Assembly (NCBI RefSeq): GCF_020144665.1
Contig: NZ_JAAHBQ010000028.1
Location: forward strand, 1 to 62,134
Length of the DNA stretch: 62,134 bases
Source: Oscillatoria salina IIICB1
Lineage (GTDB): Bacteria; Cyanobacteriota; Cyanobacteriia; Cyanobacteriales; SIO1D9
Reading direction: 5' to 3'
Shown: positions 8,578-19,466 of the stretch, piece by piece
How the letters are laid out: every line of letters begins with the position of its first letter
Position numbering within the stretch: position 1 is the first letter of the stretch
Program-made: the position numbers and the translations under genes
Notes under the pieces: model-generated
The model's database searches: none
The model's input: the letters and a program-made list of their open reading frames with translations, nothing else
Told to the model about the DNA's origin: nothing

Positions 8578-9423
8578 TTAGCCAAACCGCCCTTGCACAT
8601 AATCACGGGTACTTTCATGAATAGCAGAAGTAAAAATCTCGACAGTCTTACCACATTCAACCATATGTCCGACGCGACTTTCATCAGTATTGAAGAAAGC
8701 CGTATAATCCGAGACACGAGAAGCCTGCTGCATATTATGAGTTACAATCGCAATTGTCAGACGCGATCGCAAACTTTGGATCAATTCCTCAACTCTCCGA
8801 GTCGAAATTGGATCTAACGCCGAACAAGGTTCATCCATTAATAATACCTTCGGTTCCACCGCCAAAGCACGAGCGATACAAAGACGTTGTTGCTGTCCCC
8901 CAGAAAGCGTTAAAGCCGACTTATTTAAACCATCTTTAACCTCATCCCAAAGTGCCGCATTTCGCAAAGCAGTTTCGACAATTTCGTCTAATTCCACTCT
9001 TTTTTGCGGACTAAAAATCTTCACGCCATAAGCAACATTATCGTAAATACTACTCGGAAAAGGATTTGGTTTCTGAAACACCATACCTATTTTCCGACGC
9101 AAGCGATTAATATTAACTCGTTTGTTATATATATCCTGTCCAAAAAATTCTACTTTTCCAGTTACTTTTACCTTACCTTCTAATTCGCCAATCCGGTTAA
9201 GTGCTTTGAGAAAAGTAGATTTACCGCAACCTGAAGGTCCAATTATTGCTGTAATCTGTTGTTGGGGGATATCCATTGATATCTCTTGCAACACTTTTTT
9301 GTTTCCGTAGTAAAAGTTTAAGTCTTTCACTCGCAAAGCTGGTGTTTCTGCTAAATTTATTTCCGGTTTAACTTTTCGTTCAAATTGCATTTTAAATATT
9401 TCAATAACAGTTTCTTTATTCAT
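8578..9423 (-). CDS. pstB: Phosphate ABC transporter ATP-binding protein (copy 1)
   Basis: 281 aa ABC ATPase. Walker A is GPSGCGKST (residues 62-70), the ABC signature is [14 protein letters not shown], Walker B is VLLMDEPCSALD, and the PstB-typical [18 protein letters not shown] is present. It powers high-affinity phosphate uptake by the PstSCAB complex at the cytoplasmic membrane. The N-terminus is about 25 residues longer than usual; Met12 is an alternative start. It is last in the order pstS-pstC-pstA-pstB and is separated from pstA by a 276-base spacer filled with heptamer repeats, which is unusual for such an operon. Confidence 0.96.
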   Translation of the reverse strand: MNKETVIEIFKMQFERKVKPEINLAETPALRVKDLNFYYGNKKVLQEISMDIPQQQITAIIGPSGCGKSTFLKALNRIGELEGKVKVTGKVEFFGQDIYNKRVNINRLRRKIGMVFQKPNPFPSSIYDNVAYGVKIFSPQKRVELDEIVETALRNAALWDEVKDGLNKSALTLSGGQQQRLCIARALAVEPKVLLMDEPCSALDPISTRRVEELIQSLRSRLTIAIVTHNMQQASRVSDYTAFFNTDESRVGHMVECGKTVEIFTSAIHESTRDYVQGRFG

Positions 9424-9443
9424 CTATTAGCAATTTCTTTAAC

Positions 9444-9695
9444 CTACTAACTGCTACCTGCTAACTGATAACTGGTAACTGCTAACTGATAACTGATAAC
9501 TGATAACTGGTAACTGGTAACTGCTAACTGCTACCTGCTACCTGATAACTGCTACCTGCTAACTGCTACCTGATAACTGCTACCTGATAACTGGTAACTG
9601 CTACCTGCTAACTGCTACCTGCTAACTGCTAACTGCTACCTGATAACTGCTAACTGGTAACTGGTAACTGGTAACTGATAACTGCTACCTGATAA
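9444..9695. repeat. Tandem heptamer array, 35 perfect-length units, between pstA and pstB
   Basis: From 9451 to 9695 the sequence is 35 head-to-tail 7-base units with no register slip; a further diverged unit (CTACTAA) precedes at 9444. Only positions 4 and 7 vary. Four unit types occur on the plus strand: CTGCTAC (10), CTGATAA (10), CTGCTAA (8) and CTGGTAA (7). C at position 7 is found only with C at position 4. Read on the pst-sense strand they become CAGTTAT-, CAGTTAC-, CAGTTAG- and CAGGTAG-type heptamers. The array ends four bases from the pstA stop. Heptameric short tandemly repeated repetitive (STRR) sequences are known from cyanobacteria; this array resembles them. Confidence 0.97.
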
Positions 9696-9699
9696 CCGT

Positions 9700-10662
9700 T
9701 TATCTTTGCCAAGGTTTACTGGTAACTAAACGAGACAAAATACTGGTAATTAAGACCAAGGTAATCAAAACCAAGCCAGCAGTCCAAGCCATTGCATTTT
9801 GGTCTTTAAAAGGCGAAGTAGAGTAATTGTAAATCAAAACCGACAAAGAAGGAGTAGGAGTCAAAAGTGTTTCGGGAATTCCTTGAATTACTGTAATTTT
9901 ATCCATTCCTTCCGGTAAATTAAATAACATTTTTAATTGTTCAACCAGAGGTGGCCAAAAGTTACTAGAAAGTGCAGTAAAAAGTAAGGGTGCAGTTTCT
10001 CCAGCCGCACGCGCGATCGCTAGTAAAACCCCTGTAGTAATCGCCGGAAGTGCAGCAGGAATAATAACACGAAAAACCGTTTGAAAACGCCCACCTCCCA
10101 AAGCAGCAGAAGCGAGACGATACTGAGTAGGAATTAGCTTCAAAGATTGTTCGGTAGTCAGAGCAATAATTGGTAACATAATGATACCTAAAGCAAAGCC
10201 TCCAGCTAAAGCAGAAAAGCCAAAAGCGAGGACAACAACACCGTAAGCAAAAACACCAACTATAATCGAAGGAACGCTGCTTAAAATAACGATAATAAAA
10301 CGAACAATTTCTGCGATCGCGTCTCCTGGTTGGGAAATTTCTGCTAAGAATACTCCAGTCATTATCCCCAAGGGAACGCTAATTAAACAAGCAATTCCTA
10401 CCATTGTCAGTGTCCCAATAATCGCATTCGCAAAGCCATTTGGTTCGTCTTCTACTCCTGCGGGTGCAGGAAGAGAAGTTAAAGCTTCCCAACTTAATTG
10501 AGGTAGTCCCTGATGAACAATCTCGAATAAAATTGCTAATAAAGGTAACAAGGAAATCGCCGTAAAAATTAAAGCAATTGCTGTCATTCCCCAAGTAAAT
10601 AAATTTCTAGTCAAAGATAAAGGTTGAGTTAGTTCATTTTCTAAAAATTTATCCGTTGTCAT
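9700..10662 (-). CDS. pstA: Phosphate ABC transporter permease PstA (copy 1)
   Basis: 320 aa inner-membrane permease with about six transmembrane helices. The cytoplasmic EAA-like coupling motif is seen in LASAALGGGRFQTVFRVIIPAALP, followed by GVLLAIARAAGETAPLLFTAL, a signature of PstA. It forms the channel with PstC. Its start overlaps the end of pstC by four bases (ATGA type), indicating translational coupling. Downstream, the heptamer array starts four bases past the stop. Confidence 0.96.
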   Translation of the reverse strand: MTTDKFLENELTQPLSLTRNLFTWGMTAIALIFTAISLLPLLAILFEIVHQGLPQLSWEALTSLPAPAGVEDEPNGFANAIIGTLTMVGIACLISVPLGIMTGVFLAEISQPGDAIAEIVRFIIVILSSVPSIIVGVFAYGVVVLAFGFSALAGGFALGIIMLPIIALTTEQSLKLIPTQYRLASAALGGGRFQTVFRVIIPAALPAITTGVLLAIARAAGETAPLLFTALSSNFWPPLVEQLKMLFNLPEGMDKITVIQGIPETLLTPTPSLSVLIYNYSTSPFKDQNAMAWTAGLVLITLVLITSILSRLVTSKPWQR

Positions 10663-11651
10663 CTTTGTTTTTTCAGTCCAATTAGTTGCACCATCAAAAC
10701 CGCGATCGCGTTCACAATTAAGGTAATCGCAAATAAAATTAAAGCGAGATACATTAAAGCACCAATGTGCAATTTGTCAAGGGCTTCGGGAAATTGATTT
10801 GCTAAAACAGCCGGAATTGTATAACCCGGAGCTAACAGCGAAGGACTAATATTAATCGAGTTACCAATCACCATTGTCACCGCCATTGTTTCGCCTAAAG
10901 CACGTCCCAAAGCGAGGATAACTGCACCTAAAATACCTGCACCAGCCGTGGGTAACAAAATGCGACAAATTGTTTCCCAACGAGTTGCACCAAGAGACAT
11001 TGAAGCACTGCGTAATTCAGTGGGAACTGCTAATAAAACTTCGCGACTAATTGCCGCAATTGTTGGTAAAATCATAATTGATAATAGTACCCCAGCCGCA
11101 AACATTCCAATGCCAAAAGGTTCGGTGCTAAACAAAAAAAGCCAGTTAAAATTATCGTAAAGCCATTGTTGAAAAGGAGTAATAAAAGGAACTAAAACAA
11201 AAATTCCCCACAAACCCACAATTACACTAGGAATAGCCGCAATTAATTCCACCAAAAAACCCAACGGCGATCGCACCCAGATCGGTAAAAAATTCTCGCT
11301 GGTAACAATTGCTACAGACAAACCCAAAGGAATGGCGATCGCCAGCGCTAATGCTGAAGTCACCAAAGTACCATAAATAAAAGGTAAAGCACCAAACTCC
11401 TCAGCGCTAATATTCCACTGGGTATTCCAGAGAAAGTCTAAACCAAAATCGGCGATCGCCGGACGAGCATCTTTAAAGACAATCCAACTCATCCACAGCA
11501 GCACCCCAGCGCTAGCAACTAAAGCAAAAATCCAGACTAAACTAATAAATAACTTATCTTGCCAAATTTTTTCTCCTTTTGTATCACTCAAATTTAAATC
11601 ATTTTCTGCATAAAAACTGCTCAATTTATCAGTTTGCTCGGAAAAATTCAT
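10659..11651 (-). CDS. pstC: Phosphate ABC transporter permease PstC (copy 1)
   Basis: 330 aa permease. Six transmembrane helices, the coupling motif LRSASMSLGATRWETICRILLP, and LGRALGETMAVTMVIGN typical of PstC are visible. The N-terminal 35 residues are polar. It lies about 80 bases downstream of pstS and overlaps pstA by four bases. It pairs with PstA to form the membrane pore of the phosphate importer. Confidence 0.96.
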   Translation of the reverse strand: MNFSEQTDKLSSFYAENDLNLSDTKGEKIWQDKLFISLVWIFALVASAGVLLWMSWIVFKDARPAIADFGLDFLWNTQWNISAEEFGALPFIYGTLVTSALALAIAIPLGLSVAIVTSENFLPIWVRSPLGFLVELIAAIPSVIVGLWGIFVLVPFITPFQQWLYDNFNWLFLFSTEPFGIGMFAAGVLLSIMILPTIAAISREVLLAVPTELRSASMSLGATRWETICRILLPTAGAGILGAVILALGRALGETMAVTMVIGNSINISPSLLAPGYTIPAVLANQFPEALDKLHIGALMYLALILFAITLIVNAIAVLMVQLIGLKKQR

Positions 11652-11732
11652 CTTATTTACTCAGAAAATTCGCAATTGAGGACATCTCCTAGAGGGAAAT
11701 GTCCCCAACACTACAACAAACAATTTTAGTTT

Positions 11733-12803
11733 CTAGGGACGAGCAGAAACTTCTTGTTTCATGGTATTAATTGCCCGTTGAGCAACAGATTGAGGAATGC
11801 GAGTATAGTGAAGCTGACCGTTAATATTTTGACCGTCAGTTAAAATCCACTCAACCATTTCTTCAATTGCTCGCTCTTTCGCCACATTTTCATACTCTTC
11901 TTTCAGCAACAGCCAAGTTACACCCACAATCGGATAACCATCTTCAGGATCGTCAGAATTAGCTGTAGTAAAATCTGGATTAAAGCGGATATTTTCTAAA
12001 GCTTTATCGGCATTTGCATCCGTAGGTTTAAGATACTGACCAGCTTTATTTTCCACTGCTGCCATATTCAAGTTATTTTCAAAAGCATAGTCTGCTTGAA
12101 CATAGCCAATAGCACCTTCATTTTGCTGAACAACCGCCGCAACTCCAGCATTTTTAGCACCACCTAAAGTCGTCCCGGGCCAACTAGGAGCTTTGTCAGC
12201 AGCAATACTAGAACCAATCGCATTTAAATGGCTAGTAAAAATATAAGTTGTACCGCTACCATCCGAGCGTACGGCAACTCTAATTGGCTTATTTGGTAAG
12301 TTAACACCAGGGTTATCAGCACTAATTCTGGAGTCATTCCAACGAGTAATTTTACCTTCAAAAATAGCAGGTAAAGTTTCGCGAGACAGCTTGAGATTGC
12401 TAACACCTGGTAAATTATAAACTACCGCTACAGCACCACCAGCCGTCGGAACCATCACCATTCCTTTCTTCATCTGGCTTTTCTCACCTTGCTCCGGTGG
12501 TGCATCGCTACCAGCAAAATCAACCGTATCAGCGATAAACTGCTTAATTCCGCCACCGCTACCGATAGCTTCGTAATTGACCCGAAGACCTTTTTTCTGG
12601 CGAATTTCGTTAAAATAGCGATCGTAAAGTGGCTTAGGAAATGATGCTCCTGCGCCATTAAGAGTAATATTTGCTTGGGCGGTAAAAAATTCTTCTTCTG
12701 AAACTACTTCTGAATAGTTTACCGCTCCAGAAGTTAAAGAAACAGTTACAGCCGCTACTGAAACGGCAACAGCGCGGCGCAAAGTAGTCGTCAGGAAAAT
12801 CAT
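11733..12803 (-). CDS. pstS: Periplasmic phosphate-binding protein PstS
   Basis: 356 aa with a cleavable-type hydrophobic N-terminus (residues about 9-28). The mature part opens ITLNGAGASFPKPLYDRYF, the PstS signature, and contains SDGSGTTYIFTSHL, which supplies phosphate-contacting residues, and GAIGYVQADYA. It delivers phosphate to PstCA. First gene of the pst unit. A Pho-box-like site about 100 bases upstream suggests induction by phosphate starvation through the SphS-SphR type two-component system. The second pst cluster at 23.8-26.5 kb has no pstS of its own, so this protein may serve both. Confidence 0.96.
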   Translation of the reverse strand: MIFLTTTLRRAVAVSVAAVTVSLTSGAVNYSEVVSEEEFFTAQANITLNGAGASFPKPLYDRYFNEIRQKKGLRVNYEAIGSGGGIKQFIADTVDFAGSDAPPEQGEKSQMKKGMVMVPTAGGAVAVVYNLPGVSNLKLSRETLPAIFEGKITRWNDSRISADNPGVNLPNKPIRVAVRSDGSGTTYIFTSHLNAIGSSIAADKAPSWPGTTLGGAKNAGVAAVVQQNEGAIGYVQADYAFENNLNMAAVENKAGQYLKPTDANADKALENIRFNPDFTTANSDDPEDGYPIVGVTWLLLKEEYENVAKERAIEEMVEWILTDGQNINGQLHYTRIPQSVAQRAINTMKQEVSARP

Positions 12804-13089: not shown

Positions 13090-14343
13090 ATGAACCCGCC
13101 ATTCTTCCTCAAAAATTTACCCAAGCCAGTGCGAATCTTATTTCGCCCGATGCTGTTTATCTCCTTGGGATTACACATCGCCCTACTAATGCTTCCCATT
13201 CCTTCTGACTCAAAAAAAGCGAAAATAGAACCTCTTGAAGCCGAAAAAGAATCAGAAGTAAAGATTACCAAGTTACCACCAAAAACCTCTCCCTCACCAA
13301 CTCCTAAAGCTTCTCCCCAAGCCTCTATTTCACCAACTCCCAAACCATCGCCAACTGTCTCTCAAGCCAAACCGACTCCCCGACAATTAGCAAACCAACT
13401 CATAACTCGACCAAAACCAACCCCGACACCCACACCAACTCCAGAAACCAAGCCAACTCCAACCCCAACCCCAACTCCAGAAACCAAAACAACCCCAACC
13501 CCAACACCAACCCCAGAAACCAAAACCACACCAACGCCAACTCCGACACCCACACCAACCCCAGAAACTAAGTCAACTCCAACACCAACGCCAACTCCAA
13601 CACCGACACCCACGCAAACAACTTCCTCGACTCCATCCCAAAGTCTCGAAGATTTCATTAGAGAATTTCCTACTTATAAACAAGCCCAGCCAGGTTCAGG
13701 AGAAATTTTGCGCCCTGAATTTGATGAATCTGCTTATATTTACAATACAACTGATAAATTAGAGCAAGTAGCCGACACTTTCGAGTCAAACCTTTTACCA
13801 GAAAAAGAATATAACGCCCAACTAACTACAGACGAAAATAATTTTAAAGTTCTTACAGTATCTAAAGGCAAAATAACTCAATATCTACACCTAATTTCTC
13901 AAGGGGAAAAAGTGGCTTTCTTGCTTTTGGATAAAACCTATAACTTAGACGCGCTCAAAACTGCTAAAACGGGAGAAGTTGACTTTAATAAAACAGCATT
14001 TATCATGATTGTTTCAGAATTAGAAAAGCAGTATGAAGAAGGAACAACTCCCGTTGACCGCAGTCTTCTCAATGAAGGTAGTAAATTTCAAAATTCTGAC
14101 AAATTCGATTTCCGAGTAATGACCGGAGCGCCTTTTCTCAATCCTCCTACAAAACAAGAACTTATTGATTCTTTGGGTCGTTTGTTACAGCAGGGAGAAG
14201 TTAACTTTAACTTTGAAGAAGTAGGTACTTACGGAGGCGGTTCTTTGTATAAAGTATCGCGGGAAACCTTTGAGATTTATGTTATTTTTGCACCTGCTGG
14301 AGATAGAACGGCGATAATTATTGCTGATGAATACCCTCGCTAG
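13090..14343 (+). CDS. TonB-like protein: N-terminal anchor, Pro/Thr-rich spacer, unrecognised C-terminal domain
   Basis: 417 aa. A short cytoplasmic N-terminus leads to one transmembrane helix (about residues 20-37) with Ser25 and His29 in the spacing S-x3-H, as in the TonB helix that contacts ExbB/ExbD. Residues 64-183 form a rigid Pro/Thr-rich spacer with many TPTP units broken by PETK. Residues 185-417 are a folded-looking domain that does not resemble the TonB C-terminus I know. The gene converges on two exbD genes and an exbB; its stop overlaps the exbD stop in CTAG. Function as an energy transducer or envelope-spanning link is inference. Its periplasmic partner is unknown. Confidence 0.65.
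   Translation: MNPPFFLKNLPKPVRILFRPMLFISLGLHIALLMLPIPSDSKKAKIEPLEAEKESEVKITKLPPKTSPSPTPKASPQASISPTPKPSPTVSQAKPTPRQLANQLITRPKPTPTPTPTPETKPTPTPTPTPETKTTPTPTPTPETKTTPTPTPTPTPTPETKSTPTPTPTPTPTPTQTTSSTPSQSLEDFIREFPTYKQAQPGSGEILRPEFDESAYIYNTTDKLEQVADTFESNLLPEKEYNAQLTTDENNFKVLTVSKGKITQYLHLISQGEKVAFLLLDKTYNLDALKTAKTGEVDFNKTAFIMIVSELEKQYEEGTTPVDRSLLNEGSKFQNSDKFDFRVMTGAPFLNPPTKQELIDSLGRLLQQGEVNFNFEEVGTYGGGSLYKVSRETFEIYVIFAPAGDRTAIIIADEYPR
13409..13618. repeat. Coding microsatellite encoding Thr-Pro repeats
   Basis: A stretch of degenerate CCAACN and CCGACA hexamers encodes the TPTP runs of the TonB-like protein, interrupted four times by PETK-type codons. On the other strand the same repeat gives a long Gly-Val open frame that is not a gene. 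Length variation through slippage is likely. Confidence 0.9.
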
Positions 14344-14759
14344 CTCTCACTTTCTATAGCTAGGGAAACGTTTTCGCCGCCGATATCTTTCATTTCTACT
14401 AATAACTGGATGACTTGTTCGTAAGGGACTTGATTGTCAGCTTTGAGTAAAACTGCACCTCGATTATTTTCGTTTAAATAAGCTTGTATTTGAGTAAATA
14501 ACTGTTCTTTTGTTAAAGGTTGTTCGTTTTGAAAAATGCCTGATGCTGTTAATTCTACTAAATAAGGTTCGGGTAAGTCTTCTAGTGGTTCGTCGCTAGC
14601 TTCTGTGTTAGTTGGTAGCTGCACGTCTACGGCTAATTCGTTAAGTAAGGTGGTGGAAATTAAGACAAAAAATGCCAATACTGCCATCATTACGTTTAAC
14701 ATGGGGATGAGGTCGATGGTGGGTATTTTTGAGTTTTCTTGTCTGGTTTTAAAGCGCAT
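14340..14759 (-). CDS. ExbD/TolR-family protein with Asn at the conserved Asp position
   Basis: 139 aa with the ExbD layout: a short cytoplasmic N-terminus, one transmembrane helix (about residues 20-40) and a periplasmic domain ending in VLLKADNQVPYEQVIQLLVEMKDIGGENVSLAIE. In ExbD the helix begins P-x-x-D-V-M-L, and this Asp is the proton-carrying residue (Asp25 in E. coli). Here the motif reads PMLNVMMAVLAFF: residue 22 is Asn (AAC; 14694-14696). The paralogue at 15223 keeps Asp. This copy may therefore be unable to conduct protons by itself. Its stop overlaps that of the convergent TonB-like gene. Confidence 0.88.
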   Translation of the reverse strand: MRFKTRQENSKIPTIDLIPMLNVMMAVLAFFVLISTTLLNELAVDVQLPTNTEASDEPLEDLPEPYLVELTASGIFQNEQPLTKEQLFTQIQAYLNENNRGAVLLKADNQVPYEQVIQLLVEMKDIGGENVSLAIESES

Positions 14760-15222
14760 AGTTTGTCTTTAGTTAGTTTTGCTTTTGAGGCGGAGCCTCT
14801 AGAGGGTGTTACTACGCGGAGCATGGTAACAAGAATTTACCTCGTTTCTCGGCTCTACTTTTTCTGAGAGGCGGAGCCTCTAGAGGGTGTTACTACGCGG
14901 AGCATGGTAACAAGAATTTACCTCGTTTCTAGGCAGAGCCTAGAAATGCTAAATTAGAGGCGGAGCCTCCTGTGAATATTCGAGGCGGAGCCTCTAGAGG
15001 GTGTTACTACGCGGAGCATGGTAACAAGAAAAATTGTAACAAGAGGCAGAGCCTCTAGATGGTGTTACCACGCGGAGCATGGTAACAAGAATGGCGCATT
15101 TGTCTCGTTTCTTGGCTCTGCCGAGAAATGCTGATTTTGAGGCTCTGCCTCTTGTATTCGAGGCGGAGCCTCGCTAAGATGTTACCACGCGGAGCATGGT
15201 AACAAGAATGAGGAGATTTAAT
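14760..15222. repeat. Cluster of palindromic repeat elements between the two exbD genes
   Basis: The whole 463-base gap is built from a two-palindrome element: GAGGCGGAGCCTC, about ten bases, then GTTAC(T/C)ACGCGGAGCATGGTAAC followed by AAGAA. Full copies start at 14787, 14868, 14982, 15043 and 15160. The first palindrome also occurs alone at 14957 and, inverted, at 15139. Related palindromes are found after the FHA-PBP gene at 31501-31603. No ORF is supported. This looks like a non-autonomous REP/MITE-type cluster. Confidence 0.9.
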
Positions 15223-15645
15223 TTAACTTCTTTGAATGGAAAGAGAAACGGAATCTCCGCCTATTTCTCCCATTTTTCTGAGTAACTTTTCTACTTGTTG
15301 GTATTCTAACTCGCGGTCGGCTTTGAGAACGATCGCGCCGTTAGGGTTTTCAGCGAGATATGCTTGCATTGCTTCAGCTAATTCGGCTTCGTCGATTATC
15401 CGATTTTCAAGTAAAATATCGCCTTCTAAGCTTAAGCCGACTACTAATTTTTTTTGAATTTCTTGTTCGCTAACTCCTCCTTCTCCAGCTTCTGTTCCCG
15501 GTACAATAATATTACCAATTCGTTGACCTGTTAAGCCCATTGAGGTAATAATAAAAAATGTCAAAACTGACATTAATACGTCTAACATGGGAACGAGGTT
15601 AACTTCTGGTAATGAGGAACCTGGTTGTTGATTTTTAAAGCGCAT
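15223..15645 (-). CDS. exbD: ExbD/TolR-family protein (canonical Asp present)
   Basis: About 140 aa. One transmembrane helix begins PMLDVLMSVLTFF, with the conserved proton-carrying Asp (residue 22 when counted from ATG 15645). The periplasmic part ends in GAIVLKADRELEYQQVEKLLRKMGEIGGDSVSLSIQ, strongly resembling the paralogue at 14340. The frame continues upstream to ATG 15660 and TTG 15663; ATG 15645 gives the MRFK start shared with the paralogue and is preferred, although ATG 15660 is possible. It should associate with the ExbB-like protein encoded upstream to form a proton-driven stator. Confidence 0.9.
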   Translation of the reverse strand: MRFKNQQPGSSLPEVNLVPMLDVLMSVLTFFIITSMGLTGQRIGNIIVPGTEAGEGGVSEQEIQKKLVVGLSLEGDILLENRIIDEAELAEAMQAYLAENPNGAIVLKADRELEYQQVEKLLRKMGEIGGDSVSLSIQRS

Positions 15646-15673: not shown

Positions 15674-15861
15674 TCTTGAGATTCTGACGCTCCTAACGTC
15701 GCTATCGCTGCGCGTCACGCTTCGCTCAGAATGACAGGATAGAAATTTGCTTATTAATCAAGGTTCTTCGCTTCATTTGATTTCGCTTAGAATGACAGTC
15801 TTGAGATTCTGACGCTCCTAACGTCGCTATCGCTGCGCGTCACGCTTCGCTCAGAATGACA
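15674..15861. repeat. Two identical 63-base direct repeats between exbD and exbB
   Basis: The segments 15674-15736 and 15799-15861 are identical. Each begins TCTTGAGATTCTGACGCTCC and ends CGCTTCGCTCAGAATGACA; the ATTCTGA and TCAGAAT ends are inverted, so each copy can fold. A partial copy of the right half (CGCTTAGAATGACAG) lies just before the second repeat. The spacer is non-coding. Likely a dispersed small palindromic element duplicated in tandem. Confidence 0.92.
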
Positions 15862-15893: not shown

Positions 15894-16688
15894 TTAATAT
15901 TCTTCGAGGGAAACGGAATCATTGGGGTAGGAATTGGCGGGAGGTAAAGAAGCTGGATTTTCTTGGGCTTGTGCTTTTTCTTCGAGATAAGGTTCGTACC
16001 AAATTTGACGATAAATTAATTCTAATTCGCTACCAACTTCGGAAAAGTAATCCATTTGACGGGCTTGTAAAGTAACTAAAATTCGGAAAATTATTAAAGC
16101 AACAATTGCGACAACCATTCCGGCGGCGGTAGTTAGTAATGCTTCGCCAATACCTGCGGCAACTTGGGCATTTTCCTCGACGGAACCGCCTCCGCCAATG
16201 TTAAGGTTGTTAAACGTATTAATCAATCCTGTCACGGTTCCGAGTAAACCTAAGAGAGGCGCGATCGCAATTACGGTTTCTAGGAATTTGTCTCCTCGGC
16301 GCATTTTGATGAATTCTTTGTCTCCGGCGGCTTCCATCGCTAAACGAAAGGTTTCTGGTGTGGGGCGTTTCAGCTTGAGTGGGGCGTAGAGGAAGCGTCC
16401 AATGGGCAAAAAACGGGCATATTCGGCGATTTCTGCGGCTTTTCGCAAGTCAAAACCCGCCGCTTCGAGCACGTCGCGCACGATGCGATCTTCTTGGGTG
16501 AGCAGTCGAAACCAAAACCAAGCTCGCTCTAAGCCACTGGCGATCGTTAGCACTGATAATGCTAAGATGGGCCACATCACGGGTCCGCCTTTGAGAAATT
16601 CGTCGAATAAGATTCGTGGTGCTTCTTCTATTGTTGCTGGAGACTGTAAGAATAAGTACATTGACTGTAGAGCAAGTAAATTAATCAT
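15894..16688 (-). CDS. exbB: ExbB/TolQ/MotA-family proton channel protein
   Basis: 264 aa. After an N-terminal helix (about residues 34-56) comes a cytoplasmic domain and then the family core: LETVIAIAPLLGLLGTVTGLINTF and the last helix with GIGEALLTTAAGMVVAIVALIIF, where the Thr pair and GxxxG pattern match ExbB/TolQ. It forms the pentameric shell around ExbD that uses the proton gradient to do work across the envelope. It is the first gene of the unit exbB-exbD-exbD on the minus strand, with repeat-filled gaps of 230-460 bases between members. The C-terminal tail is Pro/Glu-rich. Confidence 0.93.
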   Translation of the reverse strand: MINLLALQSMYLFLQSPATIEEAPRILFDEFLKGGPVMWPILALSVLTIASGLERAWFWFRLLTQEDRIVRDVLEAAGFDLRKAAEIAEYARFLPIGRFLYAPLKLKRPTPETFRLAMEAAGDKEFIKMRRGDKFLETVIAIAPLLGLLGTVTGLINTFNNLNIGGGGSVEENAQVAAGIGEALLTTAAGMVVAIVALIIFRILVTLQARQMDYFSEVGSELELIYRQIWYEPYLEEKAQAQENPASLPPANSYPNDSVSLEEY

Positions 16689-17957: not shown

Positions 17958-19466
17958 ATGGCGAGAGATTTACGAGGATTTATCAATTTATTGTCAGAAC
18001 GAGGACAATTACGCAGGATTCAGGCATTAGTAGACTCAGATTTAGAAATAGCGGAGATTTCCAACCGAATGCTACAAGCAGGAGGTCCAGCATTAATCTT
18101 TGAAAATGTTAAAGGTGCGTCTTTCCCAGTAGCGGTAAACTTGTTAGGAACGGTAGAACGCATCTGCTGGGCGATGAATATGCAACAACCCGCAGAGTTA
18201 GAGGAACTTGGTAAAAAATTGGCGATGCTGCAACAACCGAAACCGCCGAAAAAAGTATCTCAGGCGATCGATTTTGGGAAGTTGCTGTTTGATGTTGTCA
18301 AGGCGAAACCAGGGCGAGATTTTTTCCCCGTTTGTCAGCAAGTGGTAATTCAAGGGGAAGATTTGGATCTCAATAAATTACCTTTAATTCGTCCTTATCC
18401 GGGCGATGCAGGGAAAATTATCACCTTGGGACTGGTAATTACTAAAGATTGCGAAACCGGAACGCCCAATGTGGGAGTTTATCGGCTTCAGTTGCAGTCC
18501 AAGAATACCATGAGCGTTCATTGGCTGTCAGTGCGAGGTGGGGCGAGACACTTGCGGAAAGCAGCCGAAGCTGGGAAAAAATTAGAAATAGCGATCGCGT
18601 TAGGAGTCGATCCTTTAATTATTATGGCAGCCGCTACGCCGATTCCGGTAGACCTCTCCGAATGGTTATTTGCCGGACTTTATGGCGGTTCTGGCGTAAA
18701 ATTAGCTCAATGTAAAACCGTAGATTTACAAGTACCAGCCGACTCAGAATTTGTCTTAGAAGGAACGATCGCACCTGGGGAAGTAATGTCCGACGGACCT
18801 TTTGGCGACCATATGGGTTACTATGGCGGCGTGGAAGATTCGCCTTTGATTCGCTTCCACTGCATGACACACCGCAAAGATCCCCTTTATTTAACAACAT
18901 TTAGCGGTCGTCCCCCGAAAGAAGAAGCCATGATTGCGATTGCTTTAAATCGCATTTATACGCCAATTTTGCGGCAACAAGTCTCGGAAATTGTGGACTT
19001 TTTCTTACCAATGGAAGCCTTGAGTTACAAAGCTGCAATTATCTCTATTGATAAAGCTTATCCCGGACAAGCAAGAAGGGCAGCTTTAGCTTTTTGGAGT
19101 GCTTTACCGCAGTTTACTTATACCAAATTTGTCATCGTTGTCGATCGGGATATTAACATTCGCGATCCTCGCCAAGTAGTCTGGGCAATTTCCTCGAAAG
19201 TAGACCCTTCCAGAGACGTTTTTATTCTTCCCGATACACCTTTTGACAGCTTAGATTTTGCTAGTCAGAAAATCGGTTTAGGTGGTAGAATGGGAATCGA
19301 TGCTACGACGAAAATACCCCCAGAAACCGAACATGAATGGGGCGCACCTTTAGAATCAGATCCCGATATTGCAGCGATGGTAACTAGACGCTGGGCGGAA
19401 TATGGCTTAGAGGATCTCGAATTAGGCGAAGTCGATCCTAATTTGTTCGGTTACGATATGAAGTAG
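17958..19466 (+). CDS. UbiD-family (prenylated-FMN) decarboxylase
   Basis: 502 aa, the usual length for UbiD. MARDLRGFINLLSERGQLRRI is a common N-terminus, and the core contains GPFGDHMGYYGG, HRKDPLYLTTFSGRPPKEEAMI and the catalytic-region Glu residues, along with KIGLGGRMGIDATTKIPPE. UbiD enzymes decarboxylate aromatic acids using prenylated FMN made by UbiX. In cyanobacteria the likely substrate is the 4-hydroxy-3-polyprenylbenzoate intermediate of plastoquinone synthesis. That assignment rests on family knowledge; other aromatic or phenylacrylic substrates are possible. Transcribed divergently from the NYN gene. Confidence 0.92.
   Translation: MARDLRGFINLLSERGQLRRIQALVDSDLEIAEISNRMLQAGGPALIFENVKGASFPVAVNLLGTVERICWAMNMQQPAELEELGKKLAMLQQPKPPKKVSQAIDFGKLLFDVVKAKPGRDFFPVCQQVVIQGEDLDLNKLPLIRPYPGDAGKIITLGLVITKDCETGTPNVGVYRLQLQSKNTMSVHWLSVRGGARHLRKAAEAGKKLEIAIALGVDPLIIMAAATPIPVDLSEWLFAGLYGGSGVKLAQCKTVDLQVPADSEFVLEGTIAPGEVMSDGPFGDHMGYYGGVEDSPLIRFHCMTHRKDPLYLTTFSGRPPKEEAMIAIALNRIYTPILRQQVSEIVDFFLPMEALSYKAAIISIDKAYPGQARRAALAFWSALPQFTYTKFVIVVDRDINIRDPRQVVWAISSKVDPSRDVFILPDTPFDSLDFASQKIGLGGRMGIDATTKIPPETEHEWGAPLESDPDIAAMVTRRWAEYGLEDLELGEVDPNLFGYDMK

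Follow-up and report, generated by a model that had tools for sequence, protein, structure and literature searches.

A conserved ExbD partner without the proton-carrying aspartate in cyanobacteria, a candidate subunit of a heterodimeric stator with one proton site

Can a stator of the ExbB-ExbD type work with a single proton-carrying aspartate? This question is raised by a gene cluster in Oscillatoria salina IIICB1 (a genome of 5.96 Mb in 163 contigs), where one gene for an ExbB ring protein stands beside two genes for ExbD proteins, one of which has Asn in the place of the Asp. We call the Asp-bearing protein alpha and the other beta. The cluster lies in a 62,134-nt stretch of DNA, the window, and all coordinates given for it are positions within that stretch. 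Models of motors with five ring subunits and two ExbD-type subunits (5:2) hinge on two alternating Asp residues. The Asp in the membrane helix of ExbD is described as strictly conserved, and the two Asp of the Serratia ExbB-ExbD complex are proposed to protonate and deprotonate in turn as the ring rotates (PMC9008036). In TolQRA examined by cryo-electron microscopy, the two TolR Asp of E. coli are reported to lie in unequal surroundings (PMC12965293). From the sequences and their comparison with solved relatives, we consider it probable on balance that the cluster encodes a stator in which an ExbB pentamer holds one alpha and one beta chain, with one titratable site, and is coupled to a TonB-like transducer.

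The genes on which this reading turns are the following.

14340 to 14759, minus strand: exbD-beta, a 139-residue protein of the ExbD/TolR family with a Pfam ExbD match, in which Asn22 replaces the proton-carrying Asp
14694 to 14696, minus strand: the Asn22 codon of exbD-beta, AAC, which aligns with Asp25 of E. coli ExbD
15223 to 15645, minus strand: exbD-alpha, a 140-residue protein of the ExbD/TolR family with a Pfam ExbD match and the canonical Asp22
15894 to 16688, minus strand: exbB, a 264-residue ring protein of the MotA/TolQ/ExbB family with conserved Thr151, Glu182, Thr186 and Thr187

The translation of exbD-beta starts MRFKTRQENSKIPTIDLIPMLNVMMAVLAFF and has Asn at residue 22; that of exbD-alpha, numbered from MRFK, has Asp at residue 22, in PMLDVLMSVL. 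The transmembrane Asp expected of the ExbD/TolR family is absent from beta and present in alpha. An earlier note on this DNA, made from the letters alone, had pointed to this difference and had described both copies as otherwise intact in appearance. The open reading frames (ORFs) and their translations confirm the difference; both ORFs are full length, and both proteins exceed the Pfam ExbD (PF02472) cut-off of 25.4 bits, beta with 77.2 bits and alpha with 72. Neither reaches the NCBIfam cut-offs for TolR and ExbD. In alignments with solved structures, residue 22 of both proteins falls, with no gap, on Asp25 in ExbD of E. coli and on Asp23 in TolR. The AlphaFold2 model of beta (mean predicted local distance difference test score 73) has a single predicted transmembrane helix at residues 18-41, and its periplasmic domain matches the periplasmic domains of TolR and ExbD in the PDB with E values of 5.7e-05 and weaker. 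The ExbB of the window matches PF01618 (ExbB/TolQ/MotA) with 113.1 bits. The source genome has four Pfam ExbD matches, and the two beyond the alpha/beta pair both retain Asp.

We found that the substitution is shared widely. Residue 22 is Asn in 43 and Thr in 16 of 59 distinct beta proteins, the window's included. It is Asp in 116 of 116 distinct proteins among the close relatives of the Asp type (D-type) and in all 41 distinct scored proteins of more distant ExbD families. Thus, Asn is not private to this genome, a possibility the earlier note had raised, and the Asn/Thr (N/T) state occurs in 59 cyanobacterial genomes. That note had also suggested checking for Asn in one paralogue and Asp in the other across cyanobacteria; the Asp half holds in 116 of 116 proteins, and the other half needs widening to Asn or Thr. 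Each of the 59 genomes contributes its own distinct beta protein, after two genomes judged to be duplicates (L039 of G005, and L099 of G116) had been merged and seven had been added from a search with a DNA pattern. Genome G643 (locus L260) stands outside the 59, its contig ending 123 bases past the Asn motif. Also dropped were a cut-off duplicate of the window's beta (L194) and rows with fewer than 110 aligned residues. One ORF type, that of L041 and its copies, has a gap at residue 22, being cut before the motif, and was left unscored.

The alpha/beta pair is confined to some cyanobacteria. In a survey of 386 genomes within the phylum, where all strong matches were read and the weaker ones sampled (every sampled one had Asp), the beta type was present in at least 15 genomes, each of which also had alpha. 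The Asn motif, written as a degenerate DNA pattern, matched in 23 of 388 genomes of the class, and the reversed control pattern in 0. A scan of one genome per species found beta in 39 of the best 80 of 120 loci (Asn in 25, Thr in 14). All of these best 80 relatives were cyanobacterial; the scan had the N/T motif as its seed and ordered the loci by their similarity, and so does not rule out other phyla.

Such a distribution bears on whether beta is simply a decaying or neutral duplicate. We calculated the ratio of nonsynonymous to synonymous substitution (dN/dS) as the sum of dN over the sum of dS, using pairs with dS below 2 from 19 genome pairs. The ratio came to 0.124 for beta, 0.128 for alpha and 0.053 for ExbB, from 13, 12 and 12 usable pairs respectively. 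Purifying selection is as strong on beta as on alpha, and the relaxed selection on the Asn paralogue that the earlier note had considered was not found. In favour of decay, one genome (L041, also L249) has an extra beta-type gene with a cut N-terminus. Set against this are the single loss retained across many genomes, the full-length ORFs and a dN/dS equal to that of alpha, so that the idea of a decaying or neutral duplicate is in the main refuted and we give it almost no credence. Relaxed selection and pseudogene status of beta are rejected on the dN/dS values and the conservation. The cut gene just mentioned, at 6426-6773 of L041, is a third ExbD that lies between beta and alpha and ends its N-terminal side before the residue-22 motif.

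The order of events was examined in an ExbD tree built without the residue-22 column, with near-identical rows merged at 88% and a bootstrap that had yet to settle completely. All 48 N/T rows group in a single clade (support 98/97) that contains no D row; a quick tree gave this clade a support of 94. Thr rows are nested in the Asn clade within one group of 20 rows (100/100), which contains Leptolyngbya-, Nodosilinea- and Halomicronema-like genomes. Over the 48 rows the Asn22 codon is AAT in 19 and AAC in 15. An AAY codon is one transition away from Asp, and reversion to Asp was seen in none of the rows. Eight sister rows (support 97/92) are beta-like ExbDs that retain Asp. Because seven of these eight genomes carry alpha (the eighth, L083, is a metagenome bin), the alpha/beta pairing is probably older than the loss of the Asp.

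The loss of the Asp is accompanied by other changes in the beta helix. Residue 29, two turns from residue 22 on the same helix face, is Ala in all 59 beta proteins; in the 116 D proteins it is Thr in 108, Ile in five, Ala in two and Val in one. At residue 26 the beta proteins have Gly (39), Ala (11), Val (6) or Ser (3), and the D proteins Thr (79), Ser (28), Val (6) or Ala (3). At residue 16, on the cytoplasmic edge of the membrane (codon near 14712-14714 in the window), 44 of 59 beta proteins have Asp or Glu, whereas 111 of 116 D proteins have Asn. It looks as if the acid had moved there from residue 22.

This acid, together with the restriction of residue 22 to Asn or Thr, both possible ion ligands, would fit a motor in which the use of ions had been changed rather than halved, with Asn/Thr22 or the acid at residue 16 binding or passing an ion such as Na+ or a relocated proton. 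We regard this as very unlikely. Residue 16 is not acidic in 15 of the 59 beta proteins, no other conserved acid or His was found within helix 17-39 in the beta alignment, and alpha retains its Asp. Among 44 distinct ExbBs at N/T loci, T151, E182 and T186 are present in 44 and T187 in 43. An altered ExbB ring was rejected as an explanation, since the Thr and Glu residues of the channel are unchanged.

We then considered how beta is associated with alpha and with the ring. Alpha is present in 56 of the 59 genomes with an N/T beta, at the same locus in 44 (counting L043, where it lies about 5 kb from beta) and elsewhere in the genome in 12; in G617 the two genes are about 3 Mb apart on one contig. 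A search of 30 genomes with the window's ExbB, its own genome included, found a single close ExbB in each of the 30. In the other 29 this protein is 62-73% identical to that of the window, and the next best match in any genome reaches at most 50%. Since the close ExbB is single even where the two ExbD genes are unlinked, alpha and beta most likely use one common ExbB ring. Loci with a single ExbD of the Asp type are common among the relatives, so Asp copies can stand alone and, on present evidence, Asn/Thr copies do not. Stand-alone N/T copies were tried as candidates for motors with Asn-bearing subunits only and were rejected, with an Asp partner found elsewhere in 10 of 13 such genomes and in G284 and G617.

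A common ring could also serve two separate homodimers, with the alpha dimer as the proton motor and the beta dimer, in the same ExbB, as a tether, a scaffold or a passive channel, non-conducting and with a task of its own. Taken alone, the sequences are compatible with this arrangement, and the periplasmic domain of beta has its own conserved differences, for example at residues 69 and 106. It is nevertheless a quite unlikely arrangement in our estimate; N/T beta without alpha was seen in three fragmentary bins only, though many loci have just one ExbD, of the D-type.

Rather less unlikely, though still an outside prospect, is that beta acts as a regulatory or dominant-negative subunit, alpha homodimers being the working form and beta joining a part of the ExbB rings so as to shut these down or to tune how many motors are active. 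That one close ExbB gene serves both ExbDs would suit such a role, and E. coli ExbD(D25N) is described as inactive (PMC11658791), which leaves room for beta as an off-switch. The arrangement of the unlinked genes points the other way. In the 12 genomes where alpha and beta are unlinked, the sole close ExbB is beside beta in nine, the Asp copy being distant or on another contig, and beside alpha in three. An operon made up of the ring and its inhibitor would be less natural. The constraint on beta also equals that on alpha, and relatives with a single ExbD manage without beta.

Based on these comparisons we propose the following course for the heterodimer with one proton site. An ancestral ExbD gene would have been duplicated, and the two copies, both Asp-bearing at first, would have become partners. 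Beta would then have lost its Asp a single time, with Thr29 on the same helix face changing to Ala, and would have retained this loss. One alpha and one beta chain would sit inside one ExbB pentamer, and the beta site would be held by a polar residue that stays neutral, Asn or Thr. Asn is the usual mimic of protonated Asp. Beta would thus be a permanently 'protonated-like' helix that maintains the 5:2 geometry and the periplasmic dimer, and proton uptake and release would occur at alpha only, against the Thr sites of the ExbB ring. In a rotary model the number of proton events per turn would be five, not ten; in a reciprocating model the polarity would be fixed, and which helix works would be set. 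Both the 1:1 heterodimer within the ring and the failure of the Asn helix to conduct protons are suggested by homology to ExbB5-ExbD2 and TolQ5-TolR2.

We put at about even odds the fuller claim that in diverse cyanobacteria the ExbD heterodimer is obligate and each ExbB ring has exactly one Asp that can be titrated, with either half the proton cost per turn or a fixed, non-alternating stroke, and probably a service to phosphate acquisition. If it is true, one proton site suffices for a stator of the ExbBD type, and a natural one-Asp motor would let the rotary model be tested against the reciprocating one, along with the number of protons used in each step, with engineered mutants no longer the sole resource. 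It would, moreover, give a clear example in bacteria of a homodimer turned obligate heterodimer, one partner giving up its catalytic residue.

Several points weigh against the one-site heterodimer. Its assembly and stoichiometry are read from sequence and homology, and one and the same ExbB could accommodate alpha homodimers as well as beta homodimers. No alpha turned up in three of the 59 genomes (L038, L076 and L114); all three are metagenome bins, whose contigs measure 3.8, 6.4 and 8.9 kb. In the tree the alpha clade has weak support (63/94) and does not include the D partners that lie next to beta in L036 and L037. E. coli ExbD has Val and Ile at the positions aligned to 26 and 29, so the loss of Thr in beta is not the loss of a universal feature. 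To call the beta helix 'silent' may be too simple, given that residue 16 is acidic in most beta proteins. MotB with an Asp-to-Asn change is dominant negative, and this, with the inactivity described for the E. coli D25N protein, suggests that one-Asp motors may need some further change to work.

In fungi, duplicate subunits of the V-ATPase proteolipid ring have become obligate partners, each losing abilities; that machine is a different one and the paralogue split serves as an analogy only. Among ExbD proteins we found no report of a natural Asp-less partner in the openly licensed literature, and within that literature a conserved partner of this kind appears to be new. Already known are clusters in which two ExbD genes stand in tandem with a single ExbB. 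The ExbB-ExbD-TonB systems of E. coli and Serratia (PDB 6tyi, 7ajq) resemble the present one in the ExbB ring protein, the ExbD fold, the motif of the transmembrane helix and the Thr/Glu channel residues of ExbB, but have two identical ExbD chains with Asp25 where the present cluster has a second ExbD gene without the Asp. TolQ-TolR-TolA belongs to the same superfamily, and the window ExbDs have TolR matches in NCBIfam, below its cut-offs, and in the PDB; TolR, however, forms a dimer of one protein with Asp23. Compared by gene content, the gliding motor AglR-AglQ-AglS of Myxococcus xanthus is similar in having one TolQ-like gene and two genes of the ExbD/TolR family in one cluster (PMC3169522). 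Xanthomonas exbD1/exbD2 and Stenotrophomonas exbD1a/exbD1b are likewise tandem ExbD paralogues with one ExbB, and Xanthomonas exbD2 is described as dispensable for iron uptake and as having another role; in the portions of these papers that describe the pairs, no loss of the Asp is mentioned (PMC3551730, PMC11002078).

Two features on the far side of exbD-beta bear on what the motor might do.

13090 to 14343, plus strand: gene of the TonB-like protein, 417 residues, convergent to the exbB-exbD genes; single N-terminal transmembrane helix, SxxxH, Pro/Thr-rich linker
8578 to 12803, minus strand: genes of a phosphate ABC transporter of the pstS-pstC-pstA-pstB type, adjoining the motor cluster; the association recurs in relatives

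The TonB-like protein has a predicted helix at residues 20-33, in which S25 and H29 form SxxxH, followed by the P/T-rich linker and two predicted C-terminal alpha/beta domains. We take SxxxH to be a TonB motif. H29 is present in 20 of 20 aligned relatives, a chosen subset; by a crude pattern, 34 of 49 distinct TonB-like proteins have SxxxH and 15 have AxxxH, which indicates that the His is more widely kept than the Ser. No Pfam family matched the TonB-like protein at an E value of 0.1, and comparison of its full-length model with the PDB (Foldseek, VIA-align) gave weak, mixed matches, none of them clear. We infer that the motor would drive this protein.

The names of the pst genes are those that we assume from their families and gene order. 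Near the cluster, a match to the window's PstC occurs at 8 of 49 N/T loci, against 23 of 49 D loci (a few regions being counted twice), so the link to pst is stronger in relatives without the Asn copy. At the threshold applied, the source genome yields no more than two PstS-like genes. A recurrent pst neighbourhood suggests a testable role in energised acquisition of phosphate across the outer membrane, and we treat this possible role as a lead, not a result.

Some further features of the loci were observed. A gene at 17958-19466, which we presume to be UbiD-like, is a recurrent neighbour of the cluster, at 11 of 49 N/T loci and 9 of 49 D loci; such a neighbour also occurs at L036, L039, L052, L068, L074, L080, L106, L109, L111 and L114. 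At L174 (5793-6453; the same region as L006, genome G005) exbB is split into two ORFs by a frameshift or a sequencing error, and both ExbDs are full length. In the window, the gap between the alpha and beta genes (14787-15226) is filled by five copies of a 67-base repeat, which start 61-117 bases apart and are 70-100% identical to the first copy. Between exbB and exbD-alpha, at 15674-15861, there is a 63-base repeat in two identical copies.

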